DNA of 64,000 bases from Comamonadaceae bacterium (GTDB taxonomy: Bacteria; Pseudomonadota; Gammaproteobacteria; Burkholderiales; Burkholderiaceae_C). Shown here in pieces: positions 52,085 through 60,780 of the stretch. The stretch is taken from contig CANBWY010000001.1 in the NCBI GenBank assembly GCA_947373245.1, positions 43,944 through 107,943 of the forward strand, written 5' to 3'. Each line of letters begins with the position of its first letter. Within the stretch, counting starts at the first letter, position 1. The position numbers and the translations under genes are program-made. Under the pieces are notes generated by a model, which worked only from the letters and a program-made list of their open reading frames with translations, made no database searches and was not told the DNA's origin.

Positions 52085-52714
52085 ATGCGTCTCAATTTTC
52101 GTAACAAATCAGCAGTGATGATCGCCCTCGGCCTTGGCATGATGCAATTGGCCCAAGCACAGGCGGCCGATGCCACCGTGACTTTTGCCGGTCAAGTGAC
52201 CGCCAACACTTGTACGCTGTCACTGACCGACGGTACCAACTCGGCCACCAACGGCAACCTCAACGTGGACTTTGGCAAGATTACGTTCGGAACAGGCGGG
52301 ATCACTACGGGAATGCTTCTAGGTTCCAGCAAAACCGTGACCCTCTCTGCCAAGAACGCCGCCGGAGCTGCCGCATGCGCCAGTTCCGGACTAACCGGCG
52401 AAAAAGCCAACTTCAACGTTTTGTTGGATTTGAGCGCCAGCCAAATCACAACTGTTGCTGGTAAGACTTACCGTACCAACGATCTGGCTGCCAATGGCAC
52501 CAATGCAGTGTTGGCTTTGGCCACGGGTACAACCATAACCAATCAGCTGAGCTTGACACCACGTGCAGGTGATACAGGCACGTTTGCAGCCGCAAGCTCG
52601 GTCGCTATTGCCACAGGCACCATTCCATTGACCGCACAGTTGGTGACCTCTGGGACAACTTTGACGGCTGGTGCATTCAGCGCCAGCATTCCCTTGTTCT
52701 TGGTTTACCAGTAA
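52085..52714 (+). CDS. Chaperone-usher fimbrial major subunit-like protein
   Basis: Signal peptide, then DATVTFAGQVTANTCTLSLTDGTNSATNGNLNVDFGKITFG...; paired cysteines and C-terminal ...ASIPLFLVYQ. Confidence 0.88.
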   Translation: MRLNFRNKSAVMIALGLGMMQLAQAQAADATVTFAGQVTANTCTLSLTDGTNSATNGNLNVDFGKITFGTGGITTGMLLGSSKTVTLSAKNAAGAAACASSGLTGEKANFNVLLDLSASQITTVAGKTYRTNDLAANGTNAVLALATGTTITNQLSLTPRAGDTGTFAAASSVAIATGTIPLTAQLVTSGTTLTAGAFSASIPLFLVYQ

Positions 52715-52797: not shown

Positions 52798-53211
52798 ATG
52801 GCGCGCCCGATTGGCTTTGTCAAAAACCTGCTGTCACGTCTGACGGTTCTCGTTGGCCTGTGCTTTTTCCCACATGTACATGCTGAAATACTTGATGGCA
52901 GGTTGAGCTTTGAAGCTCAAATATCCCAGAGCACTTGTCTGCTGTCGTCGGACAACGATGACGGCCCCCCACCTACACGCATCACCTTTTCGTTGAACAC
53001 CGAAAAAGGCAAGCGTATGTGTATGAATTCAAATAACTTAAAAATATCGGTGGATTCACCACAGCGCCAAATGTCCGAATTGAATGATCGGTGGTACTTG
53101 GCCAATACTTTTGGAAGCGAAGCGTTCACGCTACAGAGCGTTCAGCGCAGCGGCATGAAGCCCATGCATGCGTTCGAAGCCAAATTGGCGTTGCTAGTGG
53201 ATTACCAATGA
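52798..53211 (+). CDS. Putative minor fimbrial subunit
   Basis: Signal-peptide-like N-terminus, two Cys (STCLLSS...RMCMNS), C-terminal AKLALLVDYQ resembling pilin donor-strand end; between pilin and chaperone. Confidence 0.62.
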   Translation: MARPIGFVKNLLSRLTVLVGLCFFPHVHAEILDGRLSFEAQISQSTCLLSSDNDDGPPPTRITFSLNTEKGKRMCMNSNNLKISVDSPQRQMSELNDRWYLANTFGSEAFTLQSVQRSGMKPMHAFEAKLALLVDYQ

Positions 53212-53942
53212 TGAAGTACTTTTTTGCACCATTCGTCTTAGCTCTGGTTTTGGCTGCGCCATGCGCGGTGGCCGAAATGATCATCGACACCACACGGGTG
53301 ATTTACCCCGAAGCTCGGCGTGAAGTCACCTTCAACGTCAGCAATGTGTCAAAAGAGAAACCATCGCTGATCCAGATGTGGGTGGACGACGGCGTGAACA
53401 CGGTGTCCCCCGAAGACGTGGTGACGCCCTTCAATATTTCCCCGCCGGTGGCGCGTGTCGGCGTCGAGGGCCGCCAAGTGGTGCGCATGGTCTACACCGG
53501 CGATCCGCTGGCCAGCGATCGCGAAAGTCTTTACTGGTTCAACATGTTAGAGGTCCCCCCCAAGTCCAATGCGGAAAACCGTTTGAGCTTTGCCATTCGC
53601 ACACGCATCAAATTGTTCTTCAGGCCCAAAGGGCTGAAAGGCGATCCGGGTCAAGCGATGGGCAAAGTCACGTGGAAAGTTGTGAAACAAGACAACGGTT
53701 GGGCCATTGAAGGCGACAACCCGACACCTTTTCACATGTCGTTTTTGAGCTTGAATCTAGGCGAACCTGATCAACTCATCTCCGTCACAGAGGGCGGCAT
53801 GCTCAAGCCCCTGAGCCATGCCAGCTTCCCCGTCACCATGACGGACAAACTGCCACAAAAATACTCGTTGCTCGTGGCTGACTTTATCAATGACTATGGT
53901 GGTGTGAATTCCACCTCGTTCACATTAGCCCCTGCCAAGTAA
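53208..53942 (+). CDS. Periplasmic fimbrial chaperone (PapD-like)
   Basis: EMIIDTTRVIYPEARREVTFNVSNVSKEKPSLIQMWVDDG...RLSFAIRTRIKLFFRPKGLKG: PapD family. Confidence 0.94.
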   Translation: MMKYFFAPFVLALVLAAPCAVAEMIIDTTRVIYPEARREVTFNVSNVSKEKPSLIQMWVDDGVNTVSPEDVVTPFNISPPVARVGVEGRQVVRMVYTGDPLASDRESLYWFNMLEVPPKSNAENRLSFAIRTRIKLFFRPKGLKGDPGQAMGKVTWKVVKQDNGWAIEGDNPTPFHMSFLSLNLGEPDQLISVTEGGMLKPLSHASFPVTMTDKLPQKYSLLVADFINDYGGVNSTSFTLAPAK

Positions 53943-53993: not shown

Positions 53994-56663
53994 ATGAAGC
54001 CGTCAAATGCAGGGTTGCAAAGGCCAGCTCTTATGCGACGGCGATGGGTGATGATGTTTCTCATCATGACGCAGGCTGCGACAGCTTGGGCTCTGATTTC
54101 AGAAAATGCCAGACAGGCACCTGCCAGCACCGTATCGGTCTTGCCCACTGAAGCCCCAAACGCAGACGACATCGAATTCGATTCAGACTTTTTGCGCGGC
54201 AAGGGCTTTCGCAACATGAGCAATGCCGAGCTGAAAAAACTGGGCAATGTCCGTCCGGGCCCGTTGACGGTCGACATTTACCGCAGTGGCACCTCCATCG
54301 GCAAATCATCGGTGCTGTTCACCACGCCGCCGGGTGAGGAAAATGGCAACGCCAAGCCGTGCATCACGCGAGAGTTGTTCATGCAACTGAACGTCAAACC
54401 CAGCGCCGTCAGTACCCAAGGAATGGCGGTACTCAGCCCGCCGGATTCGGAATCTGCAACGCAAGACGCCAAAACCTGCTTGTATCTAGAGGACTAGGTC
54501 AATGGCGCGAGCGCTGATTTTGACAAAAGTGCGCTGCAGCTCAAACTGAGCATTCCCCAAGCCTATTTAACAAGGCAAAGCAACGCATCCGTTTCCACGA
54601 GCATGCTCACGCGAGGCGATAACGCGGGCATGCTCACGCGAGGCGATAACGCGGGCTTCGTCAACTACAACTTCAACCACTATCAAGCACAGGGGAACAC
54701 ATCAGACTACTTGGGCTTGAATTCGGGTTTGAACTTAGACGGTTGGCAATTGCGCCACAGCAGTTTCCTGACGCAAGGCGACAGCACAAACGGACAAAGC
54801 GCCCATCAGTACACGTCTGGCGAGACATTTGTGCGACGCCCTTTGATTGACTGGAAGTCCAGCCTGGCCTTGGGTGACACCAACAGTTTCAGCCCCATCA
54901 TCGGCGGCGTGCCACTGCGTGGGCTACGTCTGTCGTCTGAGGAAGGCATGATGAGCGATGACGAGCGGAGCTACAGGCCCGTGGTGCGTGGCATTGCCCG
55001 CACCAATGCACGGGTGCGCGTTATGCAAAACAACGTGGTGTTTTTTGAGCAGACCGTGCCCCCTGGCCCCTTTGAATTGAACGACATCAACCCACCCGCG
55101 GCGTTGGGGGATTTGGAGGTCATCGTGACCGAGGCGGACGGAGGGCAACAAAATTTTGTAGAGCCCTACAGCCTCAGTGCGGGCAAACTCAGCCCCGGGT
55201 CTTTGCGCTACAGCACGTCAGCGGGCAACTACAGACCTAACGCGACCAGCGTCAATCACGCAGCCGTGCTGCAAGCCTACGTACGCTATGGACTGAACAA
55301 ATGGGTGTCGCCCGGCGTGGAACTATTGATGGCGTCGAATTACCAAAACCTTGGCCTGCAAACGACCTTCAACAACCCTTGGGGAGGGCTGACCCTCAAC
55401 AGCCTTTATGCGCAAACAAAAGAACTAGCCTCCAACAGTACCGGACAAGCCTTCAACGTCAATTACACAGCCCCCGCCATGGGCCCGTTCCAATTTTATG
55501 GGGGCCTGAGTGAGCAATCACGTGCCTATGTTGCCCCCAACACCGCGCTGACGGGCATGCCCTTTGACGTCAATGGTTCGTATAACTTTAAAAGCAGCCG
55601 GTATTTCAGCTTGTCGCTGAGCATGCGTTCCTACGGCGGTGTTTCGTTGAGCATGGTGGATCAAAACACGTGGGCGACGAATAGCCAAAGCCGCCAACGC
55701 AGAGCGTCTTACTTTACAAATTGGCAGCGGATCAACCTGAATGCCTACTTAAGCCAAAGCAACTTTGCAGATGGCAATAAATCGACAAGCAGCGTGGGCT
55801 TCTCGATCGCCATTCCGTTGGAAAGCTCAGGCAAGTTAGGTTCAGTCAGCGCGAGCTATACGCAGTCCGACCAAAGCGATGCCACACGGTCCCTGTCCTA
55901 CTCGGGCAGCATGGGGCCCAACAACACAGCCTATTACAACCTGAACCACTCACAAACCGGGGCCGATAACAGCTCTGGCGGCTCACTCAATTACGCACAC
56001 CCTTGGGGCAACTTGGGGGGTAACTTGTCGTCCTCTAGCAGTGGCGCCGTGCAAACCGGTTTGAGCGCGTCAGGCAGTGTGGTACTCCACCGCGATGGGG
56101 TGATCATGGCCCCGCCCTTGGGTGGCACCTTTGCCATCGTCGAAGTCCCTCAGGGCGAAGGGGTGAGCCTGCAAGGCGGCAACGCACGCATCAACCAGCG
56201 CGGCTACGGCGTAGTGACCAACCTATCGCCTTACTACCTTAACGACGTGCAAATCAGCTTGGAGGGTGCGTCCGTTGACTTAGATATCGACAACGCTGGA
56301 CAAAAGGTTGCACCGGTGGAAGGCGCAATCGTGCGTTTGAAGTTCGACACCACCGTCGGACGCCCCTTGCTGTTAAAGCTATCGACCAGCAGCGGTGAGC
56401 GCATCCCCATTGGCGCGAACGTGACGAGTAGTCAAGGCGTCGACGTGGGCATTGTGGGCCAAGGCAGTCGCGCCTTGGTTCGCGTGAAAACACCCCGAGA
56501 CAAGCTCAACGTGGTGTGGGGAGAAAACGCCAACGAACACTGCACCACCCAATACGCGCTGGACGAAAAAATACCCAGTAACGCCAGTGGATTTACCCCA
56601 TTGCAACTCATGTGCGCCGTCGGCTCAGATGCGAACGACTTGCTAACTAGGTCACCTCCATGA
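53994..56663 (+). pseudogene. Fimbrial outer-membrane usher, interrupted by in-frame TAG at 54495-54497
   Basis: ORFs 53994..54497 and 54603..56663 share one frame; translation resumes directly after TAG as VNGASADFDKSALQLKLSIPQAYLTRQSNASVST...; usher motifs on both sides (FDSDFLRGKG... and SLSAGKLSPGSLRYSTSAG). Confidence 0.85.
54603..54656 (+). repeat. Exact 27-bp tandem duplication within the usher gene
   Basis: ATGCTCACGCGAGGCGATAACGCGGGC repeated twice (54603-54629, 54630-54656), encoding MLTRGDNAG x2. Confidence 0.97.
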
Positions 56664-57730
56664 ACACCCCATTTTTGAAACTGCTTTTGGTCTTTGTTTC
56701 AATGTTTGCTTTTTATGTGCCGACACATGCAACGACATGCAACTACACCACCTCATGGAGTTTGAATACAGCGCCCACTTCTGACAAAAATTTCACGTTT
56801 AGCGCGGACAACCAAACCTTAACGGTGAGCGCGAAGCCATCGAGAAGTTCATACCAAATGAGTGTCAATTTGGTCATCGGGTTTACAAGCATGAGCACCC
56901 CTGCCAACGGGGATTCTTGTTTGTTTTCTTTGATTCAAAACAACCAGTCGTTTTCCACACTGAACAACACATCGATTGCCTTTTCCAGAACACTGGCAGC
57001 GTCGGGTTCTAGTTGCGGCTTTAACTACCTGGGTCGTCCCAACATTGCAAGCACGTACAAAGGCGGGGCCTATTTAACCCCGATTGCGGCGGGACTTTTT
57101 ACGGACATCTATGAAATTTCAAATTGCGCCCCCTCTGCCACATTCTTACAAGAGCTCATCGTGACTGTGGCCCCAGGCGCCAAAGGTAACTTCATACTAG
57201 ACGCCTCCAAATTTGTCAGGGTCATGGCCGGACAGCACAACACCGATTTGAATGGCCTTGTCAGTTGGTCCTCGCCAAATGCGCAGGCGTTCATGGCATT
57301 TGCATTCGTGGGCAACCCCACATGTGCCGTCATCTCCCCCACGGTCACCCTGCCCACTTTGTCGCCCTCTGCAATTGGCTCATCTCTCGATCGAAGCGCG
57401 GATTTTTCACTCAAATTAAATTGCGGCCAAGGCAATGCATTCGCATACACAGTGACCCCCACTTGGTCATTTACACCCGCTTTTACAGGCTCTTCTATCA
57501 TTGCAAATACGGGGTCAGCCAGTGGCATTGGCGTCACGGTGACCAGTAAGAATGGGGCGGTGCCAGCGACCGTCACCAATGGTTACAACGCGGACACGGC
57601 AACCATCGCAGCAAACGCGACGGCGACCTCACAAACCTTCAATTACTCGGCAGCGTACGCAAAAAGCGCAACCACGGTGACGCCGGGCACAGTCAACGCC
57701 AGCGCATCCATCACGTTGTCCGTCCAATAA
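56660..57730 (+). CDS. Putative fimbrial tip adhesin / large terminal subunit
   Basis: Signal peptide; two-domain secreted protein downstream of usher with C-terminal pilin-like domain ending ...NASASITLSVQ. Confidence 0.7.
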   Translation: MNTPFLKLLLVFVSMFAFYVPTHATTCNYTTSWSLNTAPTSDKNFTFSADNQTLTVSAKPSRSSYQMSVNLVIGFTSMSTPANGDSCLFSLIQNNQSFSTLNNTSIAFSRTLAASGSSCGFNYLGRPNIASTYKGGAYLTPIAAGLFTDIYEISNCAPSATFLQELIVTVAPGAKGNFILDASKFVRVMAGQHNTDLNGLVSWSSPNAQAFMAFAFVGNPTCAVISPTVTLPTLSPSAIGSSLDRSADFSLKLNCGQGNAFAYTVTPTWSFTPAFTGSSIIANTGSASGIGVTVTSKNGAVPATVTNGYNADTATIAANATATSQTFNYSAAYAKSATTVTPGTVNASASITLSVQ

Positions 57731-57920: not shown

Positions 57921-58784
57921 TCATAGCGCAGTCTGACGCTGCCGCTCGAACTCATAGGGGCTGAGTTGATCGAGATGCTTGTGGCGTCGAACTCGATTGT
58001 AGAAACCCTCGATGTAATCGAAGATTTCTGACTTGGCTTCAGCCCGAGTTTGGTAAATCCGCTTCTTGATTTGTTCGCTCTTCAAGTTACTGAAGAACGA
58101 TTCAGCCACCGCGTTATCCCAGCAGTTGCCGCGACGACTCATGCTCGGGCTTAGTCGGTTGTCTTTGCACCAACGGTTGAATTCGTCGCTGCCAAATTGA
58201 CTGCCCTGATCCGAATGGATGATCACCGAGTCTTTTGGCCTTCTGCGCCACACCGCCATCGTCAGAGCATCCAGCACCAAGCTCGTTTGCATACTTTTAC
58301 CCATGCTCCAGCCCACCACTGCACGCGAGTGCAAATCAAGCACTACGGCCAAATACAACCAGCCTTCAAGTGTGCGGATGTACGTGATATCCGTCACCCA
58401 AGCGTTGTCAGGCTCATCGTGCTGGAACTGTCGCTGCAATCGGTTTGGCGCCACAAGTGCGGGCTTGCCCACTTTGTACCTAGGACGTTTGTAGCCACGT
58501 ACAGACTTGATCTGAGCGGCACGCATCAACCGCGCCACGCGGTTCTCACCGCAAGCCACGCCTGCTTCGCGCAAGTCACAGAAGATGCGCGGGCTCCCGT
58601 AAATGCCCATGCTCTGGTCGTAGAACTCTTTGATCTTTGCCGTCAACACCTCATTGGCTTTTGCCCTTGGCGATAGCGGCTCATGCAGCCAAGCGTAGAA
58701 GCCGCTGCGGTGAACTTTGAGAACGCGGCACATGCTGGTGAGTTTGAATTCTGATCGGTGGGCTTGAATGAATGCGTACTTCAC
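57921..58784 (-). CDS. IS3-family transposase OrfB (rve/DDE integrase domain)
   Basis: DNAWVTDITYIRTLEGWLYLAVVLDLHSRAVVGWSMG...SVIIHSDQGSQFGSDEF...GNCWDNAVAESFFSNLKSE. Confidence 0.97.
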   Translation of the reverse strand: MKYAFIQAHRSEFKLTSMCRVLKVHRSGFYAWLHEPLSPRAKANEVLTAKIKEFYDQSMGIYGSPRIFCDLREAGVACGENRVARLMRAAQIKSVRGYKRPRYKVGKPALVAPNRLQRQFQHDEPDNAWVTDITYIRTLEGWLYLAVVLDLHSRAVVGWSMGKSMQTSLVLDALTMAVWRRRPKDSVIIHSDQGSQFGSDEFNRWCKDNRLSPSMSRRGNCWDNAVAESFFSNLKSEQIKKRIYQTRAEAKSEIFDYIEGFYNRVRRHKHLDQLSPYEFERQRQTAL

Positions 58785-59068
58785 CCGGACTGTTTTGCAA
58801 AGTACGCGGCGGCCTTTTTTAGGATGTCGCGCTCCTCGGTAGTGCGTCTGAGTTCAGCCTTGAGCTTGGCCATCTCGGCTTGCATCAACTTGAGGTCACT
58901 GGACTGAGGTTCATCCGCCTTCTTGAACTTGCTGACCCACGTGTACAGAACGCCTTCAGCAATGCCTAGTCGCTTGGCTACATCGACAACTGAGTGGCCT
59001 TTATCGATGACTTGTTTGACAGCCTCGTCTTTGAACTCGGGGGCATATTTCGCTCGTTGCATTTGCAA
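58781..59068 (-). CDS. IS3-family transposase OrfA (HTH_Tnp_1)
   Basis: RAKYAPEFKDEAVKQVIDKGHSVVDVAKRLGIAEGVLYTWVSKFKKADEP...ELRRTTEERDILKKAAAYFAKQSG. Confidence 0.96.
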   Translation of the reverse strand: MQMQRAKYAPEFKDEAVKQVIDKGHSVVDVAKRLGIAEGVLYTWVSKFKKADEPQSSDLKLMQAEMAKLKAELRRTTEERDILKKAAAYFAKQSG

Positions 59069-59484: not shown

Positions 59485-60780
59485 CTACCCACCCAACACT
59501 GTTGCTTTGACGCTGGGCGTTGCACTGCGCCCGTAGTACATCTCAATGTTTTGCACACTCGTGCCCATGTTTCGTGCGATATCCCATACGGGTACATTTT
59601 TTTGCAGCATACGCACCGCATAAAAGTGACGCAGGCTGTAAAGCGTGTAGACCTCACCGTATCTGTTTTTTTCAATGCCCAAATCTTTCAGGAACGCTTG
59701 GAACTGGTCTATGAGTGTTATGACTTGGTTGCCATCGAGCATCCGAAAGAACCACTTGTCCTTGTTGTCTACTTTGCGTTTGACTTTGATTTGCCCTGTG
59801 TAATGAGGCTGCATTTTGTTGCGCTGGATGACATGCAAGATGAAGTTACGGGATGAGACTCTTGGGATGACTACACGCGAGCCAGTTTTGCCCTTGACGT
59901 TGAATTGATAGTTGGGGCGGCCCAAGTCGTCTTTAAATTCAATCACATCGCTTTCATGCAGGTTGTTAGCCTCACCTACTCGCATACCACTCTTGGCAAG
60001 TATGTGTACGTAATCACGCAGCATTTCCCTGTTCCAGCGGCGTTCTTGGTCTCTCAATGGCACCGCACGTATCCATGCTCTAAAGCTCTTGTAAATCTGG
60101 GCCATGTCTGGGGATGTGAATGCAGGTCGCACAACCCGCTTCTCACTCTTAAAGCGCCATGTGGGTAATGCAATCCGTCCACGATAACCACGCTCATCAG
60201 CAAACTTCAACAGCGTTTTTGCCAGCGTCACTTCCCACTCAATCGTTTTATCTGCAGGGTTGAGCCTAGAGTTTTTGGGACGGTCTTTTTCGTCCATGCG
60301 GTGGTAGTAGTCCTTACGCCACGCTACGTAATCTTTCAGTACCGCGTTATCAATTTTGTCCACGGCTTTCTTGCCGCAGTACTCACGCCAAAACTTGACC
60401 ACTCGTTTGATTTGACGAAGCATGTAGATGCTGGTTTGCTCTTGGCGGGACGTATTGATTTTGTCCAGCTGCGCTCTGTCGTACTGCAATTGCCTCAACC
60501 GCACGTACTCATCAATCACATCGTTAAACGTAGTCTGTTGCAAGGGCAGGTCTTCGTCTTTACGAAATTCAATCTCGTAATAGAACTTCATTGCACTCTT
60601 GCGAGCGTCTGCTAACTGCCGTGTTTTGAGGGAGCGATGGATGTATTTGCGTGTGCCCTCGCCCTTGTACACACGTGCGTAAAAAATGCCGTTGCGTGAG
60701 TACAGGAGGACTTTGCCATCCTCCATGTACTCCTCATACTCAGTCGTTTGCTGTGTATTGTTTTTGTTCAACTTTTGCAC
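59485..60780 (-). CDS. Site-specific tyrosine recombinase / phage-type integrase
   Basis: C-terminal catalytic pattern SGMRVGEANNL ... LYSLRHFYAVRMLQKNVPVWDIARNMGTSVQNIEMYYGRS. Confidence 0.92.
   Translation of the reverse strand: MQKLNKNNTQQTTEYEEYMEDGKVLLYSRNGIFYARVYKGEGTRKYIHRSLKTRQLADARKSAMKFYYEIEFRKDEDLPLQQTTFNDVIDEYVRLRQLQYDRAQLDKINTSRQEQTSIYMLRQIKRVVKFWREYCGKKAVDKIDNAVLKDYVAWRKDYYHRMDEKDRPKNSRLNPADKTIEWEVTLAKTLLKFADERGYRGRIALPTWRFKSEKRVVRPAFTSPDMAQIYKSFRAWIRAVPLRDQERRWNREMLRDYVHILAKSGMRVGEANNLHESDVIEFKDDLGRPNYQFNVKGKTGSRVVIPRVSSRNFILHVIQRNKMQPHYTGQIKVKRKVDNKDKWFFRMLDGNQVITLIDQFQAFLKDLGIEKNRYGEVYTLYSLRHFYAVRMLQKNVPVWDIARNMGTSVQNIEMYYGRSATPSVKATVLGG

Follow-up and report, generated by a model that had tools for sequence, protein, structure and literature searches.

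A premature amber codon in the only usher gene of a betaproteobacterial genome bin: probable recent loss of a chaperone-usher fimbria

The window analysed here, a stretch of 64,000 nucleotides, stems from the genome bin of a freshwater-type betaproteobacterium (2.29 Mb, 112 contigs, 84% complete) and carries a chaperone-usher fimbrial operon on its plus strand. A major pilin-like protein (52085..52714) has a weak NCBIfam FimG match and is 52-56% identical to 1728-2390 of the nearest related locus, L069 (CAMCUN010000095.1, from a bin labelled Polaromonas sp. YR568); there is one such major pilin gene here versus three tandem paralogues at L069 (1066-3052). Next come an open reading frame for a small protein that looks secreted and may be a minor subunit (52798..53211), for which neither Pfam nor NCBIfam gave a match and related loci offered no clear relative, and an intact PapD-type periplasmic chaperone gene (53208..53942; PapD_N, E 6e-39; PapD_C, E 6.4e-11). 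The usher gene (53994..56663) is followed by an intact gene for a fimbrial or tip adhesin-like protein (56660..57730; PF00419, E 7.4e-11; 63% identity to L069). The open reading frames, together with the Pfam matches of the chaperone and the downstream fimbrial/adhesin genes, bear out the original prediction that the chaperone, pilin and adhesin genes around the usher are intact. Usher and chaperone are the only ones of their kind in this 84%-complete bin, 53208..53942 being the sole PapD_N match in the genome.

When translated, the usher frame comprises 889 codons and a terminal stop; a TAG at 54495-54497 is its sole internal stop, and the frame is the same on either side of it. This confirms that the two open reading frames noticed earlier, 53994..54497 and 54603..56663, lie in the same frame and are split by one amber codon. 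Pfam placed PapC_N on both sides of it (model positions 1-83 upstream and 96-140 of 146 downstream), so that we are dealing with one gene; two separate genes were ruled out, as the TAG sits inside a single Pfam domain. The 721 codons past the stop (54498..56663) are open and comprise the remainder of the N-terminal domain, the barrel, the plug and PapC_C. Besides matching Usher (E 1.5e-108) and PapC_C, they can be aligned over their full length with ushers from other genomes (42-67% identity), which means that the similarity to ushers upstream and downstream is not due to chance and that the continuation of the usher past the TAG had been predicted correctly. In comparison with the solved FimD, whose alignment spans residues 85-858 of the read-through frame, the amber codon is located in the periplasmic N-terminal domain, the second of whose two cysteines precedes it by six codons. 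PapC_N, the Usher barrel and PapC_C, by which a FimD/PapC-type usher is recognised, thus follow each other in order and in one frame across the TAG. Such an usher should also have an uninterrupted coding sequence, which the TAG at 54495-54497 denies to this one, and we therefore file 53994-56663 as a disrupted usher gene rather than a working usher. Its true start is likely to be 54036, which would provide the signal peptide MRRRWVMMFLIMTQAATAWA.

The position 54603 is merely the first in-frame ATG past the TAG, while homologous coding sequence resumes directly at the stop codon. The open reading frame finder reported this ATG because it opens an exact, in-frame tandem duplication of 27 bp (54603..54656, MLTRGDNAG twice, zero mismatches), 105 bp downstream of the amber codon and situated past the N-terminal domain but ahead of the first barrel strand. 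The duplication had been overlooked in the original prediction. None of the aligned relatives has a second copy of the unit, nor are there further copies elsewhere in the genome. It is a second private change, separate from the TAG, and being in frame it leaves the reading frame intact. For the same reason a change in copy number of the unit would not switch the frame, and phase variation by slippage was ruled out, the lesion being a substitution and the nearby duplication being in frame. The ATG at 54603 and its duplicate at 54630, just past the truncated domain, would be suitably placed for a two-piece usher, in which the N-terminal fragment would cooperate with a barrel translated from a restart. 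Yet the TAG cuts inside the PapC_N domain, the barrel piece would be devoid of a signal peptide, and the split occurs in no relative; we regard this arrangement as extremely improbable.

Downstream of the operon, about 190 bp past the adhesin gene, lies an IS3-family transposase in two open reading frames on the minus strand (57921-59068), a 93% identical copy of which is found at a contig end on another contig. A tyrosine recombinase (Phage_integrase, 59485-60780) sits between this element and secA. In six related genomes, the sequences taken from next to secA contain no fimbrial, IS3 or integrase genes, for which reason the segment with the fimbrial genes could be a mobile island. Besides, the usher is nearer to that of L069 (67%) than to that of any genus member (about 54%), while SecA is about equidistant to both (78-81%), which makes a horizontal transfer of the operon possible.

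How the codon at 54495-54497 reads in other ushers was assessed with 18 distinct relatives, taken from genus members and other betaproteobacterial bins. The stop column is covered by 17 of them and is a sense codon in each; 15 share one aromatic residue, and two have a different hydrophobic residue. The column belongs to the best-conserved fifth of the usher. This comparison had been proposed along with the original prediction. When the read-through protein was searched against 84 genus genomes, matches were obtained in 20 (the source genome counted), roughly twelve of these being close matches. No in-frame stop was present anywhere in the matches from other genomes, the whole-genome search reporting '1 TAG' in the source frame only. 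A second genome collection gave 16 loci, including L069, when its contigs were scanned with the alignment as query; the same scan with a single protein as query gave no match. Since all relatives that cover the column have a sense codon, the stop is a derived, private state, and intact orthologues in relatives alongside a private lesion are what a recent pseudogene would display.

The remainder of the gene shows little or no further decay, again in the manner of a recent pseudogene. Against L069, dN/dS was about 0.25 for the usher (0.32 before the TAG and 0.24 after it), 0.16 for the chaperone and 0.15 for the adhesin, values that are rough given a dS near 0.9. Relative-rate counts revealed that changes confined to the window's usher never exceed those confined to the L069 usher (e.g. 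50 versus 75 with L070 as outgroup), and of 208 columns in which the other sequences are invariant, the window departs from them in 6, as few as any. By this analysis, the downstream 721 codons were under purifying selection in the past. They contain no further stop, an outcome that under simulated neutral change of these codons has a chance of about 50% at 1% divergence, 20% at 2% and 2% at 5%. The lesion should be young, because there is no excess change and few simulated outcomes stay free of further stops at the higher divergences. The substitution patterns indicate that the usher has been normally constrained until very recently, or is constrained still; an undecayed usher, however, suits an assembly error or read-through equally well.

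The main rival to a recent inactivation is a consensus error, that is, a sequencing, assembly or strain-mixture artefact in which the population has an intact usher, with a consensus base that is erroneous or derived from a minority strain. We infer the reality of the TAG in the organism from the consensus of an assembly of 112 contigs and 84% completeness, and an artefact would suit a genome so fragmented, the perfect frame on either side of the TAG, the lack of relaxed constraint and the exact 27-bp duplication as a second oddity 105 bp away. On the other hand, a scan of the 64-kb window turned up no other candidate for a stop-broken gene; the other same-frame neighbours separated by a single stop look like adjacent operon genes with TAA or TAG ends. 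Likewise, none of the 67 ABC-domain matches genome-wide contains an internal stop. Consensus errors are more typically indels than substitutions, which also makes the present lesion less typical of them. Taken together, we consider an artefact unlikely.

A stop that is real might nonetheless be bypassed, in a programmed manner or by a suppressor, giving some full-length usher and limiting fimbria production as in CS3 pili. There is direct precedent for this in a chaperone-usher operon, at least as CS3 is presented where the original report is cited (Jalajakumari et al. 1989, via PMC6681793, PMC1914089, PMC6540521), and Stg fimbriae are apparently functional despite a stop in stgC (PMC4494162). 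The purifying selection in the downstream usher frame would suit a bypass, too, and about 16% of the genome, tRNAs included, is unseen. However, conservation of the stop, used as a filter for true read-through genes in 191 prokaryotic genomes (PMC1914089) and asked for here in two or more species, is lacking, as no relative has the TAG. The genome encodes RF1, and none of the 27 tRNA genes found in its 84% has the anticodon CTA. Several ordinary genes in the window, secA among them, end with TAG, and in most of them another stop comes soon after; behind one, the following gene is by chance in the same frame. A genome-wide reassignment of TAG was ruled out by RF1, by these normal TAG ends and by the uninterrupted ABC-domain matches. 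The classical leaky stop context is CAR-YYA, unlike the GTC AAT that follows the amber codon, and a private duplication so close by points to relaxed constraint more than to a tuned switch. In the light of CS3 and stgC, a bypass would be a legitimate but low-probability reading, and we hold it to be very unlikely. That a free-living betaproteobacterium would limit its fimbriae by partial amber bypass in its only usher, as an independent parallel to CS3, seems even less probable.

We thus judge it highly probable that the window carries a very recent nonsense allele of the sole usher, which would abolish the fimbria. Out of inactivation, read-through and sequencing error, the three options originally left side by side, the first is favoured and the other two are less likely, because all covering relatives have a sense codon, the gene has not decayed, RF1 is present and no suppressor tRNA was seen; ordinary recent inactivation, rather than some novel way of decoding, is the most likely account. 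On this account the usher of the chaperone-usher operon was very recently inactivated by one nonsense substitution within its N-terminal periplasmic domain. The ribosome would terminate at the amber codon and leave a secreted product of about 150 residues (signal peptide included), with an incomplete and probably unstable chaperone-binding domain and lacking a barrel. Within the 721 codons behind the stop, 54603 is the earliest in-frame ATG, and as a signal peptide is lacking, any restart product would not reach the outer membrane. As the assembled genome has no second usher, chaperone-bound subunits would not be assembled at the outer membrane and no fimbria should form. Judged by the known role of FimD/PapC, loss of the fimbriae is the most likely consequence. 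If real, this would be an adhesion system caught at the moment of loss, its sole usher dead and its chaperone, pilin and adhesin intact. Such a loss fits the patchy presence of this usher in the genus (matches in 20 of 84 genomes), yet would have little wider consequence unless bypass of the TAG were shown.

Disrupted fimbrial coding sequences, some of them ushers, are known from Salmonella (PMC9238391, PMC4494162). The stgC usher gene of Salmonella Typhi resembles the present one in its single internal stop and its otherwise intact operon. It differs in that the published phenotype suggests function (PMC4494162), though there other S. Typhi ushers could substitute, whereas here a single usher was seen. 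CS3 pili of enterotoxigenic E. coli, described as 'bypassing an amber codon' (Jalajakumari et al. 1989, as cited in PMC6681793 and PMC1914089), share with our locus an amber codon in a chaperone-usher operon; as far as these citing papers portray CS3, the difference is that no suppressor or conserved stop was found for the usher here. Compared with FimD/PapC ushers (PF13954, PF00577, PF13953), all three domain models and the operon partners are present, but the frame is interrupted by TAG and a nine-residue duplication precedes the barrel. The L069 operon has the same gene order, and its usher, 67% identical over the downstream piece, is intact and without the duplication, in an operon with three major pilin paralogues.
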